The translations under genes were made by a program, and so were the position numbers. Positions 33,911 through 58,279 of a DNA stretch of 64,000 bases are shown in pieces; position 1 is the first letter of the stretch, and each line of letters opens with the position of its first letter. Origin of the DNA: Imbricaverruca yamaguchii (lineage: Eukaryota > Arthropoda > Thecostraca > Neoverrucidae). The notes beneath the pieces were generated by a model. The model searched no databases. It was not told where the DNA came from and saw only the letters and a list, made by a program, of their open reading frames with translations. The stretch lies in assembly GCA_034440575.1 (NCBI GenBank), contig JAOTOL010001339.1, forward strand, positions 176,501 to 240,500, given 5' to 3'.

Positions 33911-35082
33911 ATCTGACACCGCAATGCTCCTGCAGATATTTACACCATGGTGATCTGACACCTTTCCCTGTCGGCAGATATTAAATGTGGTCTGACGCCG
34001 CCCAATCCCGGCAGATATCTAGAGTGGTCTGACACTGCTCCATGTCGACATATGTCTAGTGGTCTGACGCCACCCCATCCCGGCAGATATCTAGAGTGGT
34101 CTGACGATGCTCCATCCCGGCAGATATCTAGAGTGGTCTGGCTCCATCGATATTATGGTCTGACGATGTCCATCGTGGTCTGACGCCATCTCCATCCCGG
34201 CAGATATCTAGAGTGGTCTGACGATGCTCCATCCCGGCAGATATCTAGAGTGGTCTGACGATGCTCCATCCCGGCAGATATCTAGAGTGGTCTGACGATG
34301 CTCCATCCGGCAGATACTAGAGTGGTCTGACGCTCCATCCCGGCAGATATCTAGAGTGGTCTGACGATGCTCCATCCCGGCAGATATCTAGAGTGGTCTG
34401 ACGATGCTCATCCCGGCAGATATTAGAGTGGTCTGACGATGCTCCATCCCGGCAGATATCTAGAGTGGTCTGACGATGCTCCATCCCGGCAGATATCTAG
34501 AGTGGTCTGACGATGCTCCATCCCGGCAGATAGCTAGAGTGGTCTGACGATGCTCCATCCCGGCAGATATCTAGAGTGGTCTGACACCGCTCCATGTCGA
34601 CATATGTCTAGTGGTCTAACGCCACTCCATCCCGGCAGAAAGCTAGAGTGGTCTGACGATGCTCCATCCCGGCAGATATCTAGAGTGGTCTGACGATGCT
34701 CCATCCCGGCAGATATCTAGAGTGGTCTGACGATGCTCCATCCCGCCAGATATCTAGAGTGGTCTGACGATGCTCCATCCCGGCAGATATCTAGAGTGGT
34801 CTGACGATGCTCCATCCCGGCAGATATCTAGAGTGGTCTGACGATGCTCCATCCCGGCAGATATCTAGAGTGGTCTGACGATGCTCCATCCCGGCAGATA
34901 TCTAGAGTGGTCTGACGATGCTCCATCCCGGCAGATATCTAGAGTGGTCTGACGATGCTCCATCCCGGCAGATATCTAGAGTGGTCTGACGCTCCTCCAT
35001 CCCGGCAGATATCTAGAGTGGTCTGACAATGCTCCATCCCGGCAGATATCTAGAGTGGTCTGACGATGCTCCATTCCGGCAG
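33911..35082 (+). repeat. 37-base minisatellite carrying the splice acceptor of exon A
   Basis: About 30 units of TCTGACGATGCTCCATCCCG then GCAGATATCTAGAGTGG run straight into exon A. The last unit reads CCATTCCGGCAG and then ATATCTGCACTGGTC, which is the authentic acceptor and first exon bases. The array is degenerate at its left edge (33.9-34.2 kb) and homogeneous on the right. Every complete unit therefore repeats CGGCAG/ATATCT, a copy of the real intron-exon junction. In the reading phase of exon A an array copy reads I-S-R-V-V and then TGA. Confidence 0.93.
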
Positions 35083-35281
35083 ATATCTGCACTGGTCAAC
35101 AGTCAGGAGAGAGCGGAGCGGTCGCCGCTGCGGAAGGAGCAGCTGGCCGCCGTTCAGAGGGTGGGCCAGGCGGTCAGCTTGGCCGTGGAGCGGTTCGTCA
35201 CCGTCGGAGAGACCATCGGCGACGACAACCCCGAGATCAAGGTCGACATGTACGAGGCGTGCAAGGAGGCGCGCGCTGCAG
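35083..35281 (+). CDS. CTNNAL1: Alpha-catulin, internal exon A
   Basis: This exon encodes 66 residues plus one base (phase 0 start, phase 1 end). It begins ISALVNSQ and includes AVQRVGQAVSLAVERF and VGETIGDDNPEIK, ending in ACKEARAAG. This lines up closely with the N-terminal region of alpha-catulin in animals (in the human protein, the stretch after its first ~40 residues that includes IQRVGQAVNLAVGRF). Alpha-catulin is a cytoplasmic alpha-catenin/vinculin-related scaffold made of helical bundles. It has been linked to Rho GEF signalling and to cytoskeletal and ion-channel anchoring. The acceptor is CCGGCAG at 35082 and the donor is GCAG/GTGGGT at 35282. Both lie in tandem repeats. The preceding exon was not found in the 35 kb upstream. 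Family assignment is firm. Exon edges are inferred from splice consensus and phase. Confidence 0.93.
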
Positions 35282-35400
35282 GTGGGTGGCCTGACTTCAG
35301 AAACACAAGGGTGGGTGACCTGATGTCAAGGACTCGGGGGCTGCAGGTGGGTGGCCTAACTTCGGGAACACAATGGATGCGGATGGGTGACCTCACCTAA
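35273..35400 (+). repeat. 65-base direct duplication of the exon A splice donor
   Basis: GCTGCAG/GTGGGTGGCCT occurs at the exon end (GT at 35282) and again 65 bases downstream (GT at 35347). Each is followed by ACTTC-AACACAA-type sequence and a weaker GTGACCT copy. Since 65 is not a multiple of three, use of the second donor would shift the reading frame. Confidence 0.85.
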
Positions 35401-36860
35401 GGAAGGGACGCTCTCCAATCACACTTCAAACAACCAAGAATAACCACACCTCTATACACATCTATGCGCGTACAGTCGCCCACGACTGAGCAGAAACACC
35501 TTCTGACCGATGACTTCGGGACGGAAACTGGCACCTCTTTTCCCACGTACAGCCGCCATGCGAACACGCCCCATCGCCTCGACGCTCCTCGTGCAAACAG
35601 CCACGCTACATACACACGGCACCACAGAAGCTACAACAGTTCATCCACAACGCTGACGAACAAGGGCGCAGCCAGGACCTTCTTCAGGGGGCCGACCCAA
35701 AACATTGAACAAGCTACCAATATTTCTGGTTTGGGGTGGTGAGAATCCCTGCAGTTATCATTTGATCTTGTGTAGGTTCTCTGTTAGACGGGGCGGTGGC
35801 GGACCTTGGCGCGCCTCCGCCCCTTTGGCCCTAGCACCTTGCGCCTCCGCGTCTGTTGGCGAACACTCTGAAACCATCTGTACTTGTGCCGGTGAACTTC
35901 AGTGGTGCATGGCAAACGAGCACACACAATCAACATCACGGTCTTTCAGACATAATTGACCGAAACGCGAACAAATCACTCCGATGCCGATGAGTTCAGC
36001 AAGAGTAAAACATTCGATGCGTACTGGCACTAACATCACGTACTGTTCGAAACAAAGCAACACAGACACACTAATATAACGCGAATAAACCCATTGCATG
36101 AGGACCCGCCACCGTGGCCTTCACCAGCCGGCTGGTGGAAGACGTAGTTGATTAAAATGTTGCTGAAAAGTGGTCACATGAACCCTCACAGCACAAGGAA
36201 GCTACGAGCCCGAAACTCTCCAGTTCTTCCCGTTTCCTGTACAGGCGACGCCTTTCTGTACAATGCCAGTGCGCTGATTCGCAGTTTTCAGTCGACAATC
36301 CGTTCAGCTCGCGTGGTGTTCAGACCGCTGGAACAGCGAGGCGCTCGGGGCCGCCGCTGCGAACCTGCTCCCATCTATATGCTGATGGAATCCAGCGGTG
36401 AGCGCACGCACGCACAAATGGGAGTCCATTGCCGTTGTGCTGGTCGTCGGAGCGTGACGACGATGCGGGCGAGGTGCGGAGGGGGCGGGGCGGGGGGCAG
36501 TTGTGTGGGCCAGCACGCTGGTCACGTCAGCAAACCCACCTGTCCGTTCGGCACTGGTGACGCGATCACAGAGGAGTGGGGGGGGGGGCGGCCGCTGTCG
36601 GCCGGCGGCACCCCTGTGGGGAGGGGGGGGAAAGAGCAGAGCTTCTCCAAAACCCCCCACCCACCCCAAACACACCCACCACCCTCACCCTTACCCCGGC
36701 CTTCCGACGGACTCGCTAGCCGAGATGTATCATCGTGGAGGTCTCGGATGTGATGACTAGTGGGGTCGATTCCGTGGCCTGTGAATATCCAGCTACATAC
36801 CGGCTATTGCCGACAGGCAGTCGGTGTCCCATGACCAAGGCACTTTGTTAGACGTTAGCC
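35401..36860. other. Intron A-B, first part; G-rich segment at 36.47-36.64 kb
   Basis: I see no exon. Around 36476-36502 and 36576-36632 there are G runs (GGGGGCGGGGCGGGGGG-like) that could form quadruplexes. The 201-codon + frame covering them is unrecognised and overlaps frames on the other strand. Confidence 0.5.
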
Positions 36861-37330
36861 ACATTTTAAAAAAAAAAAAAGTTTCTGGAGAATCTGGCAA
36901 TGCAAGAGGAACAATGGGCCGACAGTCGAGAAGAATGCGCGCAATAATTGGTCGCAATGCATTAGTTGGTTCTAGTGATAAAAAAAACCAAATCTTTTTT
37001 AAAAAAAGGGGCGCGGAAAAAAAAAAAAAAAAAAATTTTTTTTGCTTGGTTCCGTAACACACTGGTGCAATTTACGGCAAAATATACGGCATGCATCGAA
37101 CAAGGATAACTCAGAAAAGTAAAAACAAAGAAGATACAGAGAGACGGAGAGGGAGAAAGTGTGAAATGCTAAACAGCATAGTATACAGCATGCATGGAAC
37201 AAGGTCACCTGAGAAGGAAAAAAAAAAAAAGAAAAAAAAAGTATAAACAAAGAAGAGAGAAAAAAGGAGATAGAGAGAGAGGGGGGAGGGAGAGAGAGAG
37301 GAAGAGGGAGAGAGAGAGGGAGGGACAGTA
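36861..37330. repeat. A-rich and purine-rich simple sequence
   Basis: Poly(A) runs at 36868-36880 and 37017-37035 (the latter followed by a T run) and A/G-rich tracts at 37213-37330. CATGCATCGAACAAGG and CATGCATGGAACAAGG at about 37092 and 37190 mark a roughly 100-base duplication. Confidence 0.75.
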
Positions 37331-38595
37331 AAAGATTGATACAGACGGCATAAATATGGAGGGAGAAGTGAATAGAGTTAGAGAAGTAGGAAGGTTAAGG
37401 GCCTTTTTTTTTGCATAGGCTGTGGCTTCGACTTCTGAGGGGTTCATGTTTTAATTAATAGAAGCCTTGATTTTGCAATATCAATCGAAATCGATTTCGC
37501 TTTCGAAAAAAAACTTTTTGAAACTTTCCCACTGGGAACGTTAAAGGAAAATTTCCAGCCAAGATATCCTTAACTTTTTAAATGACCTGTCTCAGTTAGC
37601 AACCTGCTGTATGGGAGGGCGGTGTTTAAACCCCTCGCCTTCTTCGGCGTGTGCGAGGGTTAAGTACCAATTTGTTTATTTCGCTTTCTGTGCTGGGTGA
37701 GACAGTTTCTGGTCTGAAATTATTTGGTGTCGATGCTATTGATGTATGATACTACTTTTCCAAGTGACTGAAAACCAAGTCGAGGTGTTCATCTGTGACC
37801 TGTCTCAGTAGCAAAAAGGTATCTTCGGCATATGCAACTCTTTTACATGAATTGCTTCTTAATGACCTTTTTGAGGAGCAAATATGATTCACAAGACCGC
37901 TAGTGCCCAGGGAGAAACCCATTGTCGATATGCAATCCTATCGCATTTCGTCGTTCACCATTAGGTTTCGCATAAGTACTACACTACAAGAATGGCAATG
38001 GATTAATGACTCATCCAGATTTTACATTTCTGAGTAATATTATGTTATTATTAAGTTTCTATATTGGTTCTTATTTTGCTGTTGCTTCTGTGTACGACGC
38101 CAGTATTGGCTGTAAATTAATTTGCGTAAGTATATGGTTTCGTAAAACTGAATTTTTCACTTACCCTGACTACAACGTGAACTATGAGACTTCACCCATG
38201 GCCCGATTCGACAGCGTTCTACATTAAGAAGACTTGAGCATTCAAGGCTTTCTATTTCCGCCTCAATCTGGCCAATCCGTTACGTCGGTATTGTGGCAGA
38301 CTAGTGTGAATTTTCCACCTTCAAAAATGCTATTTTCCGCATGGCCTGGCCTGTGAGACCATCGATCACTCCGAGATCATAATGTGCAAAGCCATGGGTA
38401 CGTGTAATGAAGAGCTATGAATCACCGTTTGGATGGGCTCGATTCGTCCCTCGGTTACTTAGTTTGATCGGGGGCTTTAATCCCCCGTCAGTTGATAGCG
38501 TTTGGCGCAGATCCCAGTCAACGCCAGGTTAGGCATAGTTTACCGAGCAAATTTTGTCAGCCTTCTCATCTCAACGGGCGTGAGTGCTCCGTCCC
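37331..38595. other. Intronic AT-leaning stretch, nothing recognised
   Basis: No exon, RNA gene or repeat unit is visible. Confidence 0.5.
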
Positions 38596-39913
38596 TTAAC
38601 ACGCGCCCTGGAGGGGGGGGGGCGAAATCCGCCCACCCCTCCGGTTTTTCGTAGATAACTCCAGATTTTACCGGCAGATATACGCCATTCTTTGTGTGCC
38701 TGCTAATAAATGACCGGCGCGTTGTTTAAAGTAAGACAAAATGAAAATCGACCGGAAATGTTTAGAGTTAGGGGTCGCTAAAGTAAAAAATGTTATCAGC
38801 GCCAGACCACAAATATCGGCACTGATGCGCTTCCCGTATATTAGGAAAAAGGAAGTGGTCTTTGCAAAACTAGCGACTTGTTTGATATATATTGTCATAC
38901 TACATTGTTTTAAAGTCATGTCTAGTCACCGAGGTCAAGTCAGGTCAAGTTCATGACAGGCCTACTCACGCCCTGGAGGGTGGATGGCGAAATCCGCCAA
39001 TCCCTCCAATTTTTCGTACATTACTCCATATTGTACCGGCCGATATACGCCAAGTATTTTGCATACCTGCTTCGAAATGACCGGCGCATTGTTTAAAGCA
39101 AGAAAATGCAAATCGGCCGAAACGTTTTCAAGTTAGGAGCCGTTAAAATAGAAACAATTCGCAGCGCCGGACCACAAAATCGGCGCTCATGCGCTTCCCG
39201 TATATTGACAAAAGGGAAGTGTTCTTGACAACACTAGCGACTTGTGTGATGCATATTGCTCTGCTATATAATTTAAAAGTCATGTTAGGTCGCCGAGATC
39301 AAGTCAGGTCAAGTTCATGACAGGCTAATGGAACCAAACTTGGTCAACTGGAATGTGTCATAAATTCAAATGGCTGTCATGCGATTGATGTCACTTTATG
39401 TTACTCCCTACACATCCCGAAATCCACTGTTTGTCATTGTGTGCCTAAGCGTTTCCATACTTCATTCATGTATTTCATTCCTTTCTTTGCGAAGCCGATT
39501 GTGCCGAGCCGCCCAACGGAGCAGTCGGGTTTGGAGCCCGGTTCCGGTAACTGGAGCAGGTAACAACCTAATAAAGTGCTCCTATAGAGGTGACCTGAGG
39601 TAACATGGCGGATCTGACATCTGTATTGCATCATTAATAATGTCCAAAACATCATTAATGCCGATTTTGGAGCATTTAAACACAATCACAGCGATACATA
39701 ACAATGACAAGCCAAGCCACGCAAAACCAGAAATTTTTTTGCTATTTTGACATCATTTGACCTTGAAGATATTGACCTAAGGTCATGAACTTTGCACACA
39801 ATAGAGTTCACTATCGTGCCCATCCACCCTGCGAATTTCGTTGCTCTAGCCTTCACAGGAGCTGGGATCTTAGGGGGCAGAATCCGGCCCCCCCCCCCTC
39901 CAGTGCGCGTTAT
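38596..39913. mobile_element. Non-autonomous DNA element related to the TTAW family, with internal duplication
   Basis: The body 38600-39909 starts with CACGCGCCCTGGAGGGGGGG and ends, in reverse complement, with CGCGCACTGGAGGGGGGG. The left flank is TTAA and the right flank TTAT. A segment of roughly 360 bases is repeated in tandem: both copies begin ACGCCCTGGAGGG, hold CCGATATACGCC or CAGATATACGCC, and end AGGTCAAGTTCATGACAGGC. No transposase is present. Ends and target resemble the elements at 12301 and 58418 but the interior differs. Confidence 0.7.
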
Positions 39914-41984
39914 TTTCAGAGGCCTTCCAGGGCGCTTGTTAAACTCAACACCATATTTGGGATAGAGTCCAGGGACAAAACAATTAAGGCGTTGCATTGA
40001 CCGGCATGAATCCAATATCCATTGACCAGCCCAATGATGAGTCCAATATCGCCCAACTTTGAAGCATATCTTTCGGCTAGCCATCGATCGTCTCGGGCAG
40101 ATCAGAAGTGCAGATGTCTCTAGAAGTCTGGCATCGCCATCTTTATTGCCATGCAACTTGCACGCTTAATGGCCACTTCAGGTTACGTTGCGCGTCAAGC
40201 GCCGACACTAGCCGCCGGCCGTCGGGTGGCGAAACTAGCGCCGCCAATCGGCCAGCGGGGGAAACTATAGGCAGAGCAGCCCGACATTGTCACAAATTCA
40301 ACAATACCAGGAAACCATGCAATAAACGATAAAAAGTTGCAGCACCGCATTGCAATGTCCTGAATTCGGCAAACATTAAGCTCAGTTGCGGTCAGGCTGT
40401 TGAAAATTTCGGTTAGAAATTTGGACCCCCAATACGATGCAGCCATTGATTTCATTTGCAACATCAGTGGATTGACGACATGCTACTTTCAACCCCAAAA
40501 TGCCGTCACAATTTTTTTTCCGCAAGGACATCCGGAATGCGATACATATAAAGAAAAACATCAGAAGTTGATTACCCCAATAAGGCACTTTCACAAAAAC
40601 GCATCAATTGGATCCTGTGGTCGATAACTATAGTTATCCAGGGTCGCCAAAGACACCACTACAGTTAAGAACAAACGTGATGTAAATTCACTTGCTAGAG
40701 CTTGCAGATTTTCTTCGTGTTTGCATTAGTAAAAAAAATAACGGTCACAAAATTCATTCAATTCATGCCGCATGAAATGTCTTACAATCTCCTGCTTTTT
40801 GCGAGAAATGTCACGTGAGGTTATTCCAGGTCAGTGACCTTATGTGATCTGAAGGTTAGGTCAGGCGGTGTTGTCCGAGAAGATCTGGCAGAATGCATCG
40901 TTACCATCTGATGGCATTGCTGCATTAGAACAGCTGCGTAAGTTACGAATTCTGCAAAAGTCATCAAAGACGCCCCCTAGAAATGAAATCACGAGTCCGT
41001 AAGTTGACATGACCTTGAAGTTCTTAACCAGGAGGTCTGCTAACGATTGATCATCGGTCATACCGAGCCGCAGTGCGCTGCCTCGCGCGGTCTTCGATGA
41101 TCTTACAAAACGTTGTGGTGGCACACCCCCTTTCTTCCTTTTCGCAAGACAAATTGCAAGACGCAGGTGAAAGATTCATCACGACCATGGATGGCAAGTC
41201 TCTTCAAATTCCTTCCAACACGCTTAACGACATGCAACCAAGACACTTTGCATGCAACCCAATGAACCGACTCAAAATATGTGTTAAGATGAGGTACTTT
41301 TACGACATAACTGCCGGAAATGATTATTCTTAATTGATAGCTATAGGGCAGAAGGAATTGCAAAAAGGAGCGCATTGGGAATGGGGAAAGCCAACTGATG
41401 GGAACTGGGCATACAGCTTCTCACGCCTGTCGGATCCCACCCGATAGATTCTTTCACCACCCAGCGAACCGTTTAATTGGCGGCTTCAGAACACGTCCAC
41501 ATTCGAGAAGATAACTGCAAACGCTCTGATGGAGACGAAATGTGCCGTTTAACGATCCCAATTGGATATTTAGAGCACGTCTCAGAACGAAGACGATCAT
41601 TGAATTGATGATTCTGTTGATGTCACGAGGCTCCCCTGTTCGTTGTTCAGACGAAGTACTGAATTATCAGTTCCTTGTCTCCGTTTTTGTATACGTGGAG
41701 CAGATTGTCAACTGGGATATTGCGACATGGAGAATGCTGGTGTGAAATCAAGGTGCTTGATTTCACTAAAATTAAGAATTCATATTCTGAATAAAAGGTT
41801 TATACACACGATAACGGCTGAGAAGCACATTCCTTCAGCCAAATAATGATAAGCATGGGACCCGTTTTGAATTTCATTATATTGTAATGCATAATATGTT
41901 TTTGCTTACTTCAGACGCCATCCTCGAAGGCTAGCATCCTTCTCGAAAGTGTTGCAGCATAATGCGGCCAATAGTGCTAATGCG
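39914..41984. other. Intronic stretch, nothing recognised
   Basis: Mixed composition. AGGTCA-type words cluster near 40818-40865 (AGGTCAGTGACCTTATGTGA). No exon was found. Confidence 0.5.
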
Positions 41985-42290
41985 TTAGCTTGACATCACC
42001 AGCAGCAGTGTTATGGTGCTCTGTGCCGCATTAGCAACAGTGCTGAGATGGCCTGTGTCCAATCAGCAGCAGTGCTGATATGATCTGTGTCGAATCAGCA
42101 GCCGTGCTGAGGTTGTCCGTGTCTCATTAACAAAAGTGCTGAAATGGTCCCTGTCGCATGAGCAGCAATGCTGAGACGATCTGTGTCCCATCAGCAACAA
42201 TGCCAAGATGGTCTGAGTCCCATCAGCAGCAGTGCTGAGACGGTCTGCGTCGGATCAGCGGCAGTGCGGAGTTAGTATGCACGCTGTGAG
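41985..42290. repeat. Minisatellite, about 31-base unit, 8-9 copies
   Basis: The units share CATCAGCAGCAGTGCTGAGA followed by TGGTCTGTGTCC, with moderate divergence. Confidence 0.85.
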
Positions 42291-42435
42291 CGGCAGCGGT
42301 GAGAGGCTCCGCGCAGCTTATTTCTCGCGCGTCAAGTGAGCCGGCGACGCGAGGTGCCTGCTACAAAGCTGCTCCGGCACTGCGTCAGCTGAGGGTCAAG
42401 GTCACCCCAAGGCTTGCGCTCGTTGACTCGCAATC

Positions 42436-42765
42436 ATAGGCGCACCGGAGGGGGGGCAGCCCCCCCCCCCCCCCCCCCCCCCCATGAGACCGAAGTGCCC
42501 TTTTGACCGAAAAGTGCCCTCTTGGCCGGAATGTCCAAAATTTAGCCCAAAAAATAACTTGCCTTACGTGCCCCTCCTGTGCCAAAGGTGTCCTTTGGGG
42601 CCAAAACTGCCCATTTGGCCAAAAAATTTCACGCCCTCCCCCCTCCCCCCGGTCAACAAACCTTTCAGTGTGCCCCGGCCGCAAAGTGCCCTTTTGCCGG
42701 TAAAGTCCTTTCCGGCCCCCCCCCTCCCGCCATGGAAAAATCCTGGGTGCGCGCCTGCTCGCAAT
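42436..42765. mobile_element. G/C-run-bounded element of unknown class
   Basis: The left edge reads AGGCGCACCGGAGGGGGGGC and is followed by a run of over 20 C. The right edge in reverse complement reads AGGCGCGCACCCAGGATTTT and then GGCGGGAGGGGGGG. The inside is built from loose repeats of GTGCCCTTTTGRCCG and TTTGGCCAAAA-like words. The minus strand is open in a Gly-rich frame with HPGFFHGGRGG. A short fold-back element is plausible. Confidence 0.5.
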
Positions 42766-42770
42766 AGCAA

Positions 42771-43869
42771 CCGACTTGCTTAATCCATGCTGATTGATCA
42801 ATGCTCGTGCAGCCCTTTGGAATACCAGGCACTTGCAATACGATGGCTACGTAGAACAGGACGGAGTGAAGAAAAAAAACACCTCGTTAGAATTACAGAT
42901 AGCATGAACTTATTCTCCCAACACGCGTGGTCAGTTCGAGAGAGGTTTTTTCCTCGATTTTGGGGTGCAGTAGTTTTCTATGGCAACGGATGAATGAAAC
43001 ACGGATGCGCCGAAGCTTGGTGCATCTTTTATACATCAATTTCGTGATGTTTTTGAGAAAACGGTTGGGTTAGGTCATTCAAGGTCACTGACTTACGGCC
43101 GCCCAAGTGATATCACCTCCGAAAACGTTTACGAATGTGTCACACCTTCCCGAATTCAAATGTTTGCATGCAACTGTCAGGGATTGCATATCTTGACATA
43201 AACAACAAAACTGCTGTCTCCAATGTTTCGGAAACTGGTTTTGATGACGTTCTTTTATCATTATTGGCCTTCTGTGAAGAAAAAAATAACATAGTCAGCC
43301 AAACGGTCTCTTCATAGCTATGTTGACTTGATTTGCCAATATGTTGGGTGATCTACATATGTCAAAAATAAATATAAAAAACAACATTGGATATAACGTT
43401 AGAAATTTTGCAGCATCGAAGTTTCGAGATATTCTATAGTTCGATAATTTTAAAGAAATACTTGATGGGCTTTCTTGTTCTCGGTGTAAAATGTTTTTAT
43501 GTTTTCGAACATCGGAAAAAGTCAGAAAGAACATAAAAGTAATGTCATGCATGACATCAGTTGGACCAGTTTTGACATAATTGCGTTGTAGAAAAAAAAC
43601 TAAAGAAAACGGTTACTTTCTTCGGAATCGTCATGGGCTATCCGACAATACTTTCATTTCTTGCTGTGGGTCCCATATGCTATGTGATCCTGTGAGTGGG
43701 AGATGGGAGAAAATCTGTCCCCTTCCCTCATGGTCGGGCGAATGACGGTCTGAAGTCCGATCGAGCGAGGGATATCCGGCACAACAATCGACGATAACTC
43801 AAATTCAGCCGAGAAGCTGGCTTTGCGGTGTTATCTTAGCCGGTTATAGGCAAGGAACCACAATAAGGC
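42771..43869. other. Intronic AT-rich stretch, nothing recognised
   Basis: Short open frames only. Confidence 0.5.
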
Positions 43870-44130
43870 TCCAAGTAAGCCATTGGAGATAATTGCTTCA
43901 GAATGCATCACCATTCTGCTGCTGAGCCCGATACTGAACTGCTGCAAAATTCACCGTTACACTGTCGCTGAGCACCACATTACAGTACCGTAAATACCAC
44001 CACATGATCTTGCAGACCTCACCGTTGCACTGCTGCAGAATCTATAACAGGGTTACTAAAAATGTACTGTTTGAGCCGTGAAATGTGCATACTATCATAG
44101 TACCGTAATGCTGGGCCGTAACTGTAATAC
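43870..44130. repeat. Degenerate repeat of CTGCTGCAGAAT / CACCGTTACACTG words
   Basis: Irregular units with CTGCTGCAGAAT, CACCACAT and CAGTACCGTAA. The words resemble the CTGCTGCAG part of the 74-base array further on. Confidence 0.55.
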
Positions 44131-45080
44131 TGTGACCCCGTAAATCAGCCGACCTGCCATGCCCCGCATATGTCACGCCTGTACTTTTCCGTCCGGTGCC
44201 GGCAACGCGGTCACCAGCCCTCGCCGGACCCGAATCAGCGTTTTACAGGCGACGCCCAGCAACCGTGACGTGTGCCCTGTCTTCCGGTCGTGGCCGAAAC
44301 CCGGTGAACCACCCCCGGCATCAGACCTGTCTTGACTGTCGAGCCGCGCGGACCTGCCGTTGTCGGTCGCGTGCGTAAATTAATAGCTGTATTTCGGCCT
44401 CCAAATTTACAATTGTAATCAATCGCTGCTGGCTGTCGTCCTGGAACGTCATTGCGAGTGTCACCATATATTCGCAATACCTTCTTCACAATATATCGTG
44501 CAGAGAACATTTCATGTTTGCTCTTGGAGTTATCGCGGCGCGCGGGTAGAAAACCCTAGACTATTCACGAGCCTACAAGAGCGACCTTCACTACAAATCC
44601 ACCACAATAGCGCTGCGTAGCTCGTCATTATATTCGCTGGCGGATCGGGCCAACTTTCAGGAGAGCCAAAGAGGATCCAATAGCTGGTCTGTTCTTGGCA
44701 ATCTTTGGCAGGCCGCCAACTCCTGACGGGTGTATTGGACAGAAGTTGTTGAAAAGGGAGGGACGTGATCCTCCTTTTGGTTGGGAGAGCAAAGGACATG
44801 TTGGCTGCATTTAGTTAGTTATTTGGGCTTTAGGGCGCATCGACCAGGGTTGATCATTCGCGCCCATTGTTGGCTGCATTTAGTGAGGATATTTGTTCGC
44901 GGCCAAATGGCCAAATTCGAGGCCAATTCCGGAATAATTTTCAAACTTGGCGGCCAAACGACTGTTACCGTTGCCAAGACAGGGGAGGGTCATGGCCGCA
45001 TCCTCCTCCCTATAAATCCGCCGGTGACTAACTGCATTTGCACGGACCTCACGCAAATGTTGCTGTAAAGCCAACCTCCA
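44131..45080. other. Intronic stretch, nothing recognised
   Basis: A 46-48-base segment with TTGGCTGCATTTAGT appears twice (about 44800 and 44870). No exon was found. Confidence 0.5.
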
Positions 45081-45296
45081 CATCGCGACAAACATCACCA
45101 CTACGATGTCTAGGAGCCCACCACTATACCGCTTTAAAACCCACTGCTACAGCGCCATAAAACACTTACTACTATAGTGCTGCCGAACCCAACGCTATGC
45201 TGCTGCAGAACCCACCACCACATCCCCGCAGAATCCATCAATACACTTCGGTAAAGCCCACCACTATGCTGCTGCAAGAAGCAACCACCGTCCCGA
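45081..45296. repeat. Degenerate approach to the 74-base array
   Basis: Loose units contain CCACCACTATGCTGCTGCA and AACCCACC and grade into the ordered array on the right. Confidence 0.7.
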
Positions 45297-46222
45297 GACT
45301 GACGCGGGTTGGCATTCCGGGCTCTGCCATTGAGAAGTTCCGTGCTCTGCAGTCCCGCCACTATACTGCTGCAGCGGGCCACCGCCGCACCCAGACTGAC
45401 GCGGGCTGGTGTTCCAGGCTCTGCAGTCCCACCACTATACTGCTGCAGCGGGCCACCACCGCACCCAGACTGACGCGGGCTGGTGTTCCGGGCTCTGCAG
45501 TCCCGCCACTATACTGCTGCAGCGGGCCACCGCCGCACCCAGACTGACGCGGGCTGGTGTTCCGGGCTCTGCAGTCCCGCCACTATACTGCTGCAGCGGG
45601 CCACCACCGCACCCAGACTGACGCGGGCTGGTGTTCCAGGCTCTGCAGTCCCGCCACTATACTGCTGCAGCGGGCCACCACCGCACCCAGACTGACGCGG
45701 GCTGGTGTTCCAGGCTCTGCAGTCCCGCCACTATACTGCTGCAGCGGGCCACCACCGCACCCAGACTGACGCGGGCTGGTGTTCCGGGCTCTGCAGTCCC
45801 GCCACTATACTGCTGCAGCGGGCCCCGCCGCACCCAGACTGACGCGGGCGGTGTTCCGGGCTCTGCAGTCCCGCCACTATACTGCTGCAGCGGGACCACC
45901 GCACCCAGACTGACGCGGGCTGGTGTTCCGGGCTTGCAGTCCCGCCACTATACTGCTGCAGCGGGCCACTACCGCACCCAGACTGACGCGGGCTGGTGTT
46001 CCGGGCTCTGCAGTCCCACCACTATACTGCTGCAGTGGGCCACCACCGCACCCAGACTGACGCGGGTGGTGTTCCAGGCTCTGCAGTGCCACTATACTGC
46101 TGCAGCGGGCCACCACCGCACCCAGACTGACGCGGGCTGGTGTTCCGGGCTCTGCAGTCCCACCACTATACTGCTGCAGCGGGCCACCGCCGCACCCAGA
46201 CTGACGCGGGCTGGTGTTCCAG
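45297..46222 (+). repeat. 74-base minisatellite carrying the splice acceptor and 5' edge of exon B
   Basis: About 12 units contain ACGCGGGCTGGTGTTCCRGG, CTCTGCAGTCCCGCCACTAT and ACTGCTGCAGCGGGCC. The last unit ends GGTGTTCCAG at 46222 and opens exon B. The first unit (45321-45354) still carries a copy of the exon B start, GCTCTGCCATTGAGAAG, with 29 of 34 bases identical to 46223-46256. Internal units have lost that coding part and keep only GGCTCTGCAGTC. Four internal units have the intact TTCCAG/GCTCTGC junction (AG at 45416, 45638, 45712, 46076) and the others read TTCCGG. In exon phase the array copies run into TGA after about 18 codons. Confidence 0.92.
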
Positions 46223-46383
46223 GCTCTGCCATTGAGAAGCTCTGCGCCCTCCAGTCTGAGGTGAAGCAGACGGACAAGGCGACTCTGGTGCGGGCGGCCC
46301 GCTGCTTGCTCTCCAGCGTCACCAAGGTGCTGCTGCTGGCCGACACCGTGGTGGTCAAGCAGCTGATACTCTCGAAAGATAAG
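46223..46383 (+). CDS. CTNNAL1: Alpha-catulin, internal exon B
   Basis: This exon supplies two bases that complete the Gly codon split after exon A, then 53 residues, and ends in phase 0. It reads SAIEKLCALQSEV, then ATLVRAARCLLSSVTKVLLL, ADTVVVKQLILSKDK. The block RAARxLLSSVTKVLLLAD is a hallmark of alpha-catulin and recognisable in alpha-catenins as ARALLSAVTRLLILAD. Joined to exon A it gives ...EARAAG-SAIEKL..., the same length and pattern as the family, so no exon is missing in the 10.9-kb intron between. The donor is GATAAG/GTTAGT at 46384, which is not in a repeat. The 3' splice site lies in the 74-base array. Confidence 0.94.
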
Positions 46384-47999
46384 GTTAGTCAGCCGGCGGA
46401 GACCAGCTTTGCATTTATTTTCACCCGCTGGCTTTTCGATTGTAATGCTTGTTGTTTCGCTTACTGGAAGCGTGTTTTTGTTTCGTCTCAGGGTACATGT
46501 GGACTGTTCGTGCCGAATATTTTCGTCGCATGTTCACAATTTGGGGGAATGTGATCACGATGGTCGTGATAATCGGCCAGCGAGACAAATACCCGATCTG
46601 GGAGTATGATGCGGACCAGAGAACGTAGCTTCACTGAAGGGGTAGAATACATTCACACCTTGCTGAAAACATTCATGCGAAATATGGCGATACCATATTG
46701 TCATTTCCCTTTTCCCAGAATGGAGCGTTCCAACATTAGGAATTGGAAATAAGCTAGCTCCTTGGTGACTGAGCAGCAGCCTCAACAGCTACATTCCGAC
46801 TACATTTCCTTGATATGTTCCACCGTCACCAGTAGATCGGTGACTTTGCCTACGTGCCTAATTGCCGTCGCATTCATCTAACTGTCTCCACTGGTCCAAA
46901 GCGCTGCCATGAGTTCCCCGTTGATCGGGAACTGGCCTTGAATGGGCGAAATAAGGTGAAAAGTCTACGTTATTGTTATAACATCGTTGCTACCATGCAT
47001 TTCAGACAGCTGTTATCAATGGGGTATTGTGTGAAAGTTCATGAATTTAATCAACTCAAATAGTGGCAAAGGGTAGAAAGTTTTTGAAAGTTTTGCGGGC
47101 AACCAGGGACGTAAGATTATGCAACAGAACTACATGCGTTCTCCATCACGAGGCGACATTGCGTGCGCGCGCAATTTTAATCTGGCTCACTGCATCATAC
47201 ATGAAGCCGGTGTAAGGTACCGATAGGGTGCAGAGGGAGCACAGTGGGCAACAGTGGGCACGGCAACGCAGGTCGTGGGCTAGCATGTATTGCAAGCACG
47301 AGCCAGGTCGAATCTCCGTGAATGTTGACGCATCACTCGAGTTGTTATGCTGTCGCACGCCTTCCTTCAAGCATGTATGCAGAACTAAGCTGATTCTGAA
47401 GGCCATGCATTGACCGAATGGCGCTAATAAAACAAAACAGAAATAATAGCATCATCCTTCCCCGAACTTGAACTCGAGACCAGACTCGGCTGCCACGTGT
47501 CCAGACTCGTCGGGTCGTGACATGAACGCTCCGAGCGGAAGCCGTCACCCGCCGGCTGGCGTCGACCCACGCTGACGTGGCAGCTGACGCCTCGAGCCGC
47601 GGCTGCGACGGATGTTATGCTCGGTTATCTCCGGTGCCGGGCGGCGACACCCGGCTGGCGTATGCTGTGACGTCATTGGATTGTCGCAGCCATGCACCAT
47701 GCAGCCGAGCCACACGTGGGGCGTGTCCGGACTGCGTCGACCGAGCCCCTCCCTTCGCGGTGTGCTCCGATAGGTGGTGTGGGCCAGCGACAGACCAGGC
47801 CGCTCGCCGGGTAGGCACCCTCCCCATGAGCGACTTGTCCCCTCTCGCGCGCGCTGCCCGTCCTGAGCGGAGTGGCTGGTAAGATGTGCACGCCGGAACG
47901 GCTGTCCATTACGGGTGCCAATTTCACTGATCAAACTGCCCTTTGACTGAAAACCTGTTGTTGTTTAACTGTTCTACACCCTCACCTGTCGAATCTGAA
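46384..47999. other. Intron B-C, first part
   Basis: It holds short unrecognised open frames. The GC-rich part at 47.47-47.9 kb has overlapping frames on both strands and a perfect TGACGTCA at 47668-47675. Confidence 0.5.
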
Positions 48000-48360
48000 T
48001 TGATGTCCCCTATGCGATACTATAAATAGAAAGCATCATTCAGGTTGACCTTATATCCATCATTCATCATTCAGGTTGACCCTTTAGCGATTGTATGCAT
48101 TCAAGCAGATCACCCCTTAGTCTCCTATACTGGATCGAATACTGGTAAGCCTTTTTCCATATTGTAGGACCTAGTCCACCGATAGGTATAGTGGATTTGT
48201 GCTTCACTCTTTCTAGGATGTCTATATCCCTTTCTAAGTAAGGGTTCCATGCCTGTGCATAATATTTCAAGTGGGATCGAACAGAGGCTAAGCACAGTTT
48301 TACACATGGACTAATGGTCCCCTTCATCAGTTCAGGGCTCTTCATACCAAGGATCCTCAT
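48000..48360 (-). pseudogene. LINE reverse-transcriptase fragment (C-terminal part)
   Basis: The minus-strand frame from 48360 to 48067 includes CLASVRSHLKYYAQAWNPYL, ERDIDILERVKHKST and YRRLRGDLLEC. This is the conserved pattern just C-terminal of the polymerase core in CR1/Jockey-type non-LTR retrotransposons (VRPHLEYxxQAWNPY, DIxxLExVQ, YRRLRGDL). Only about 100 residues remain, ended by a stop. The catalytic motifs are not included. Confidence 0.85.
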
Positions 48361-49060
48361 ACTAAGGGCCCTTCATACTAAGGGTCTCATACTGAGAGCA
48401 ATTCATGCTAAGGCTCTTGGACCCCACTTTCGACGATTAAGGATCCTCTCCGTCGGCGCAAAAGCCCCTCTTAGCAATCCAGAACCTCCTCTGTCAGACC
48501 GAAAGCTCTCTTTCAACAGTTTGGGGCCTGTCCATCAGGTCAGGGGCTCTTGTATGGCTTGGACATCACGCGTCGGTCAAAGGACCCTTTTTAACGGCCT
48601 AAGGTTCTCTCCGGTGATTAAGGCTCCCGTCCGTCGTTTCAGGGGTCTTCTTCGACGACCCACGTCCTATCGCGGCAAGCTGCATGCCCATTTGCAAATG
48701 TTTGAGTTGTTTGACCTCTCTATCAGGTCAGGGACCCTTTCTTCGGCTTGGTCCCCGCCGTCAGTCCAGGGGCACCTCATATTGGCTTGGGACCCTCTCC
48801 GTCAGCCTGGGGGCCCCTCCAACAACCCAGGGCACACTCCGTCAATCTAGAAGGCACTCACGTTAACACAGGAAATGGCCCTCGACGTTTTCCGGTGGGC
48901 GTTCTCCGTTGACTTGGGTCCTCTTCATCAGCCTCGACCCTTTCCGTCAGCCCGGCCCCCTTTCGTTGGTCCAGAGGCCCTTCACTTCGGACCAGGGGCC
49001 CTTGAGGGACCATCAAGGCGGTCCCCTGGAGGACTCCATCCGGCCCTCCAGGAGCGGCTG
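48361..49060. repeat. Degenerate tandem repeat, about 32-36-base unit
   Basis: About 20 loose units contain GGGGCCCTTCRTC, GTCAGCCTGGGG or CTCTCCGTCAG. It starts right at the 5' side of the LINE fragment. Confidence 0.65.
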
Positions 49061-58101: not shown

Positions 58102-58207
58102 GCAACGCGAACCCTCAGCCGTCTCGAGAGTGTCACCAACTTCACGGAGTTCGTCAAGGCGTTCAGTCAGTTCGGTCAGGAGATGGTGGAGTTCGCCCAT
58201 CTGACCG
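58102..58207 (+). CDS. CTNNAL1: Alpha-catulin, internal exon C
   Basis: This exon continues from exon B in phase 0: ATRTLSRLESVTNFTEFVK, AFSQFGQEMVEFAHLTG, ending after the first base of the final Gly codon (phase 1). It lines up without gaps with the family pattern xxRLExVxNFxEFVxxFSQFG followed by xEMVEFAHLxG, where the next exon normally starts with GDRQNDLKDE-like sequence. That next exon is not visible in the remaining 5.8 kb. The acceptor is GGTCCGCAG at 58101. The first donor is ACCG/GTAAGG at 58208. Two further copies of exon end plus donor follow, so the true 3' end of the exon may be 58207, 58240 or 58273. Confidence 0.93.
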
Positions 58208-58279
58208 GTAAGGAGATGGTGGAGTTCGCCCATCGAACCAGTAAGGAGGTGGTTGGGTTTGCACACCTGACCGGTAAGC
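58175..58279 (+). repeat. Triplicated 33-base exon end plus splice donor of exon C
   Basis: Three tandem copies of a 33-base unit encode EMVEFAHLTGK, EMVEFAHRTSK and EVVGFAHLTGK. Donors ACCG/GTAAGG, ACCA/GTAAGG and ACCG/GTAAGC lie at 58208, 58241 and 58274, exactly 33 bases apart. All three keep the frame and phase and no stop lies between them. Use of donor 2 or 3 would add 11 or 22 residues. Confidence 0.92.

Follow-up and report, generated by a model that had tools for sequence, protein, structure and literature searches.

The window analyzed here, a 64,000-nucleotide stretch of the Imbricaverruca yamaguchii genome, lies within a 701-kb contig, and its host gene is alpha-catulin. Among 25 database matches, the peptide encoded by the exon designated B was most similar to an Amphibalanus amphitrite protein (P0001; 92% identical). 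When P0001 was placed on the contig, 16 exon pieces were located over a span of ~93 kb, and three of these alpha-catulin exons (A, B, and C) fall inside the window:

35083..35281, + strand: exon A (ISALVN...EARAA+G); tblastn with P0001, 92.5% identity, E value of 1.3e-29; AG/GT edges confirmed
46223..46383, + strand: exon B (GSAIEKLCALQ...LSKDK); tblastn with P0001, 92.6% identity; AG/GT edges confirmed
58102..58207, + strand: exon C (ATRTLSRLES...AHLTG); tblastn with P0001; AG/GT edges confirmed

Exon B encodes part of a vinculin/alpha-catenin family protein. Its Pfam Vinculin score of 23.1 bits fell below the cut-off for the entire family, 38.1 (the piece is short), and alpha-catenin chains in the PDB matched it with a best E value of 0.00019. 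The intron between exons A and B (35282-46222) is 10.9 kb long, and a tandem array of ~1 kb, hereafter array B, occupies its 3' end. The A. amphitrite protein P0001 joins the window exons at the exon-proximal sites with no inserts; it is the gene model of another species, and the array content of that species lay outside the comparison. The window contains 69 tandem repeat rows reported by TRF. On the minus strand at 48067-48372, an open frame was seen by eye to resemble a fragment of a retrotransposon reverse transcriptase.

We examined the structure of array B. The word AGACTGACGCGGG was present 13 times at window positions 45296-46198, and TRF reported 12.2 copies with a 95% match. The array begins at ~45255-45261, upstream of the start at 45297 given in the initial annotation of this DNA; unit starts were counted from CCACTAT, the first at 45261. 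Unit 1 is 97 bases long, units 2-12 are 70-74 bases (74 in 8 of 11), and unit 13 continues through TTCCAG into exon B, which confirms that the array ends at the real acceptor. The shortened form previously ascribed to the dozen units following the first is present, but the count is 11 inner units plus the exon unit. The array and the repeat next to it comprise the following features:

45040..45300, + strand: older decayed repeat of 23-base period, upstream of array B; autocorrelation
45261..45357, + strand: unit 1, 97 bases, with the exon-like GCTCTGCCATTGAGAAG at 45321-45337; sequence; 14/67 differences from unit 13
45358..46162, + strand: units 2-12 of the 74-base array B, with AG at the acceptor position in 4 and GG in 7; TRF, sequence, and alignment
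46163..46229, + strand: unit 13, the working acceptor region plus the initial 7 exon B bases; no difference from unit 2 in 67 columns

The autocorrelation of the older repeat (45040-45300) was 0.471 at lag 23, 0.447 at lag 46, and 0.464 at lag 69, and the maximum of 500 shuffles was 0.41. Array B reaches 7 bases into exon B, and 17 bases in unit 1. The bases after the acceptor position in the 11 inner units were GCTCTGCAGTC in nine, GCTTGCAGTC (one base short) in one, and GCTCTGCAGTG (with a final G) in one. At the acceptor position of the 12 non-functional units, TTCCAG was found in 4 (AG at 45416, 45638, 45712, and 46076) and TTCCGG in 8, in agreement with the earlier statement that four units carry the former and most the latter. 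Read in the exon A phase, the copies with AG reach TGA after 18, 18, 18, and 17 codons. The claim that all decoys lead to TGA within ~18 codons was thus correct for these copies but not for the GG units: four of the eight stop after 18 codons, unit 1 stops after 75, and three (first base at 45788, 45860, and 45932) remain open for 207-255 codons, through exon B. A 310-codon open frame on the plus strand (45622-46554) crosses array B into exon B, and a gene predictor could call it an exon. The array B unit was also searched for across the genome (767 Mb, 1,430 contigs), with only the best candidates scored and very common words skipped. All 12 matches among these best candidates fell within array B itself, and a dispersed satellite or transposon-borne repeat was not supported for array B.

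Boundary-spanning copies were detected at four of the six exon edges in the window. In addition to array B, these were as follows:

33972..35088, + strand: array A, 37-base unit, 30.3 copies by TRF, ending at the exon A acceptor; TRF and sequence; boundary match score of 37
35262..35376, + strand: exon A donor and a copy 65 bases downstream, with GT intact in the copy; boundary match score of 34
58173..58278, + strand: 33-base array with 3.2 copies of the end of exon C and the donor GTAAG; TRF and sequence; score of 39

No boundary-spanning copy was found at the exon B donor or the exon C acceptor (score of 7 each). These neighboring edges with the same pattern had been overlooked in the initial annotation. 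The array A unit consists of the intron end (CTGAC...GGCAG) followed by 15 bases similar to the start of exon A (12/15 by eye), and of the 25 copies detected with a match of at least 17/24, 24 carry AG. The exon C array is in frame and stop-free by eye. Splicing from its later donors would lengthen the protein by 11 or 22 residues; the exon C donor copy that was scored was weaker than the working donor (2.2 versus 8.1). Beyond the window, the donors of three further catulin exons were copied, one of them with 14 copies and GT in 14/14. Overall, 7 of 30 catulin edges were captured, and the best copy lay on the intron side in all seven. In the chaperonin-family genes, acceptor 8987 of C912 was in a 52-base array with AG in 2/2 copies, and donors C912 3339, C217 7085, and C217 9566 were in short arrays with GT in 6/7, 2/2, and 6/6 copies, respectively. 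Across the eight captured donors, GT was intact in 34 of 35 copies, and the AG and GT counts carry a mild bias toward intact copies, as the 24-base stretch against which similarity was scored contains the dinucleotide itself. A separate intronic feature, a perfect 16-codon duplicate (PDCPRSRDNRDTVFCQ) of a stretch early in the following catulin exon, was observed just upstream of that exon (C1106:259157-259204). Arrays with a period of at least 10 bases made up ~13-14% of the 251 kb examined from the contig. For comparison, a report on the barnacle Pollicipes pollicipes gives 3.2% repeats by RepeatMasker (PMC8917513), and the difference suggests that barnacle minisatellites may be under-called.

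Next, we considered the exon-like stretch in unit 1. The identity of 29 of 34 bases between 45321-45354 and the exon B start was reproduced. The first 17 bases were identical to exon B at all 17 positions, and the last 17 matched the array word at 16/17 positions versus 12/17 for exon B. Moreover, the five differences between unit 1 and the exon are exactly the five positions at which the array word TTCCGGGCTCTGCAGTC departs from the exon, and four of the five carry the array base. Since the differences lie at array-diagnostic positions, the second half of the stretch is array sequence, and only ~17 bases are securely exon-derived; the first 7 of these are found again in the other units, with one base missing in a single unit. 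Chance does not account for 17 identical bases next to the exon concerned (~900 positions x 4^-17). As judged from these bases, the proposed copying of 34 exon bases with subsequent decay is unlikely. Alternatively, the stretch could be a later gene-conversion patch from exon B. Such a patch would account for the complete identity over 17 bases in a unit with 14 mismatches to unit 13 over 67 columns, including 4 within the nearest 32. However, the tract would need to be very short, and the exon partner is under constraint, which by itself lowers divergence. We regard this explanation as unlikely.

The array B units were then compared over 67 aligned columns. Units 2-13 differed from one another by a mean of 1.5; unit 13 was identical to unit 2 (0/67) and differed from units 3-12 at 1-3 columns, and unit 1 differed from each other unit at 11-14. 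Only two columns, the acceptor A/G among them, were informative, and each of the four possible combinations is present, indicating that the units exchange sequence. With two such columns, FastTree trees built with and without the acceptor column held almost no signal, and a unit tree, which had been suggested as a test of the array's history, was uninformative. The working acceptor of exon B is itself part of the homogenized array, of which it forms the last unit.

These results bear on a longer history, in which 34 bases of exon B were copied, 23 bases were lost between repeated words, the short form expanded, and decoys were removed by selection through AG-to-GG changes. The difference between unit 1 and a typical unit is exactly 23 bases (97 - 74), and the 23-base stretch is flanked by 13-base repeats with one difference (TTCCGGGCTCTGC and TTCCGTGCTCTGC). 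The suggested order of duplication, internal deletion, and expansion is therefore possible, with the 23 bases lost from the other units, but a 23-base gain in unit 1 fits equally. The first step conflicts with the array-like second half of the unit 1 stretch. As for the last step, GG in 8 of the 12 non-functional units would agree with decoy removal. However, AG and GG are recombined among units, and exchange together with one substitution is enough to give 8 GG and 4 AG, so the GG units do not represent eight independent losses and their excess is not readable as selection. Given the four combinations at two informative columns, the changes are likewise not countable for the comparison with a neutral rate that had been suggested. 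In addition, the dinucleotide is kept in array A and in the donor copies. This history as a whole is quite unlikely, and its selective step, the reading of GG as decoy loss, is not borne out. The idea that a tandem duplication including the exon edge seeded the array is supported.

Furthermore, we measured how often exon edges are captured relative to other positions. An edge was scored as captured when an ungapped local copy with at least 5 bases on both sides of the edge was found within 1,500 bases (fewer near piece ends) at a threshold of 16; in shuffled sequence, this threshold gave 0/286. In catulin, the 7/30 captured edges compare with 791/4,065 non-exon positions of the contig, and the rate in exon interiors was 11.1% of 72. 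The sample was extended to six genes by adding to catulin five pieces (four of the Cpn60/TCP1 family and one myosin), which were family matches chosen for dense exons. Edges of the five added genes were placed by eye from AG/GT and the reading frame, in part guided by known sequences of the families; the counts exclude exons that could not be located and the catulin exon 8 donor (numbering from 0), which runs into N. In the six genes, 11 of 89 edges (12%) were captured versus 808 of 3,987 intron background positions (20.3%). The edge rate is not above background, and exon edges are therefore no hotspot. Outside catulin, 4/59 edges were captured versus 161/878 background positions; these edges look somewhat protected, and capture may not be fully neutral.

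We also considered whether the arrays are a working device that provides alternative splice sites for isoforms or for tuning expression via nonsense-mediated decay. The first donor copies of the eight captured donors lie at offsets of 65, 33, 65, 38, 57, 23, 36, and 29 bases. Those at 33 (exon C), 57 (catulin exon 7, counting from 0), and 36 (the C217 gene) are multiples of three, and the sequence is stop-free where it was read (exon C and catulin exon 7). Sites were scored with a matrix built from uncaptured sites of the same genome (40 acceptors and 32 donors), and at 9 of the 10 edges scored, of 11 captured, one copy or more equaled or exceeded the working site in score. Both observations would suit such a device. 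However, 3/8 multiples of three is as expected by chance, the four AG decoys of array B run into stops after 17-18 codons, and the capture rate is not above background. A working device is thus very unlikely. Boundary-targeted duplication, with splice sites or exon edges as hotspots of array birth, would have been suggested by the capture of four of six edges in the window but is highly improbable in view of the six-gene rate.

By type of edge, 3/46 acceptors and 8/43 donors were captured in the six genes. Compared with background, acceptors gave a one-sided p of 0.0098 (0.0098-0.073 over five thresholds) and a two-sided p of 0.016 (0.016-0.15). Pairing of acceptors with points 40 bases into the intron gave 8 versus 0 (p of 0.008; 0.008-0.07 over five thresholds), and the direct comparison of acceptors with donors gave a Fisher p of 0.11 (0.11-0.25). 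In an 82-edge subset, with seven edges fewer, the values were 2/42 for acceptors and 8/40 for donors (Fisher p of 0.046), and the dip started ~20-30 bases from the acceptor (5/42 at 20 and 9/42 at 30); the full set of 89 adds the captured C912 acceptor. This contrast is small and post hoc, comes from few genes, and uses background points that are not independent. Donors were captured at the background rate and acceptors less often, possibly a new signal. A tentative and rather doubtful reading is that donors are duplicated at the neutral rate and acceptors are protected, as recognition would favor whichever usable AG comes first, giving an upstream copy the advantage. The two catulin acceptor arrays and the one in a chaperonin-family gene would then be rare tolerated exceptions, in which a working 3' splice site evolves in concert with the decoys and is selected solely by its position.

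Closely spaced alternative acceptors of the NAGNAG type are a familiar case of competition between neighboring AGs. Array B also contains competing AGs, but at a spacing of 74 bases and with CTGAC, presumably a branch-like word given the branch consensus, in each copy. Introns have reportedly arisen when AG/GT segments were duplicated in tandem (Rogers; Zhuo 2007; Gao and Lynch 2009). Lehmann 2010 also describes intron gain through such duplication (PMC2891723). Array B shares with this process a tandem duplication carrying splice signals, but here the ~10.9-kb intron is not made of the 1-kb array, and an intron born from tandem duplication was rejected. The closest known systems are the "mirages" of amphioxus, minisatellite-like tandem duplications of exon-intron boundaries described in two reports for Adh3, the globins BflGb6 and BflGb9, TnC, and PGBD5 (PMC3087553, PMC3902484). 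According to these reports, units are 10-160 bases long, many copies keep AG/GT, inner units are homogenized, the border unit diverges, and RT-PCR suggests undisturbed splicing (PMC3087553, PMC3902484). The barnacle arrays are similar in three respects. The repeats span the boundary (7/17 bases into exon B, 15 into exon A, and donors likewise); AG/GT is kept in many but not all copies (AG in 4/12 in array B, 24/25 in array A, and 2/2 in C912; GT in 34/35); and in array B the inner units 2-13 are alike and border unit 1 stands apart. As judged by these sequence features, array B is of a known kind, now in another phylum. Unlike the amphioxus cases, the host is an arthropod, 13 and ~30 units lie at two acceptors, an older 23-base repeat lies beside one of them, and the background rate was measured. 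Among the matches listed from the openly licensed literature, none described boundary-spanning arrays in barnacles.

Taken together, array B is very probably a boundary-spanning minisatellite of the mirage kind that arose by duplication, exchanges sequence among its units, and is tolerated through exon-proximal splicing. In a genome full of local tandem repeats, 13 head-to-tail units of intron end and first exon B bases lie beside the older 23-base repeat. Exchange keeps the inner units alike, and the working acceptor of exon B is now the last unit. A tandem duplication across the intron/exon B boundary would have started the array. The spliceosome would keep to the exon-proximal site, that is, the last acceptor or the first donor; with copies that match the working site in score at 9 of the 10 edges scored, position rather than strength would have to decide. 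The array would be tolerated because the copies lie on the intron side and the exon-proximal site is still used, so the copies need not alter the mRNA and would have no function of their own. On the donor side, arrays would take in exon edges at about the rate of intron sequence. On the acceptor side, they would perhaps do so less often, since an additional AG upstream has a greater chance of being used. Array B seems to have originated by local DNA duplication of an ordinary kind in a genome rich in repeats, and it is not a singular fossil.

These counts give a first small estimate of frequency, in which about one in 10 barnacle exon edges would carry tandem copies of its own splice site (11/89, six genes). 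Such arrays create long open frames and possible false exons, which is a warning for annotation. If the estimate holds, barnacle genomes would contain many natural competition experiments, in which near-identical splice sites differ mainly in how far they lie from the exon, and splicing error could be related to copy number.
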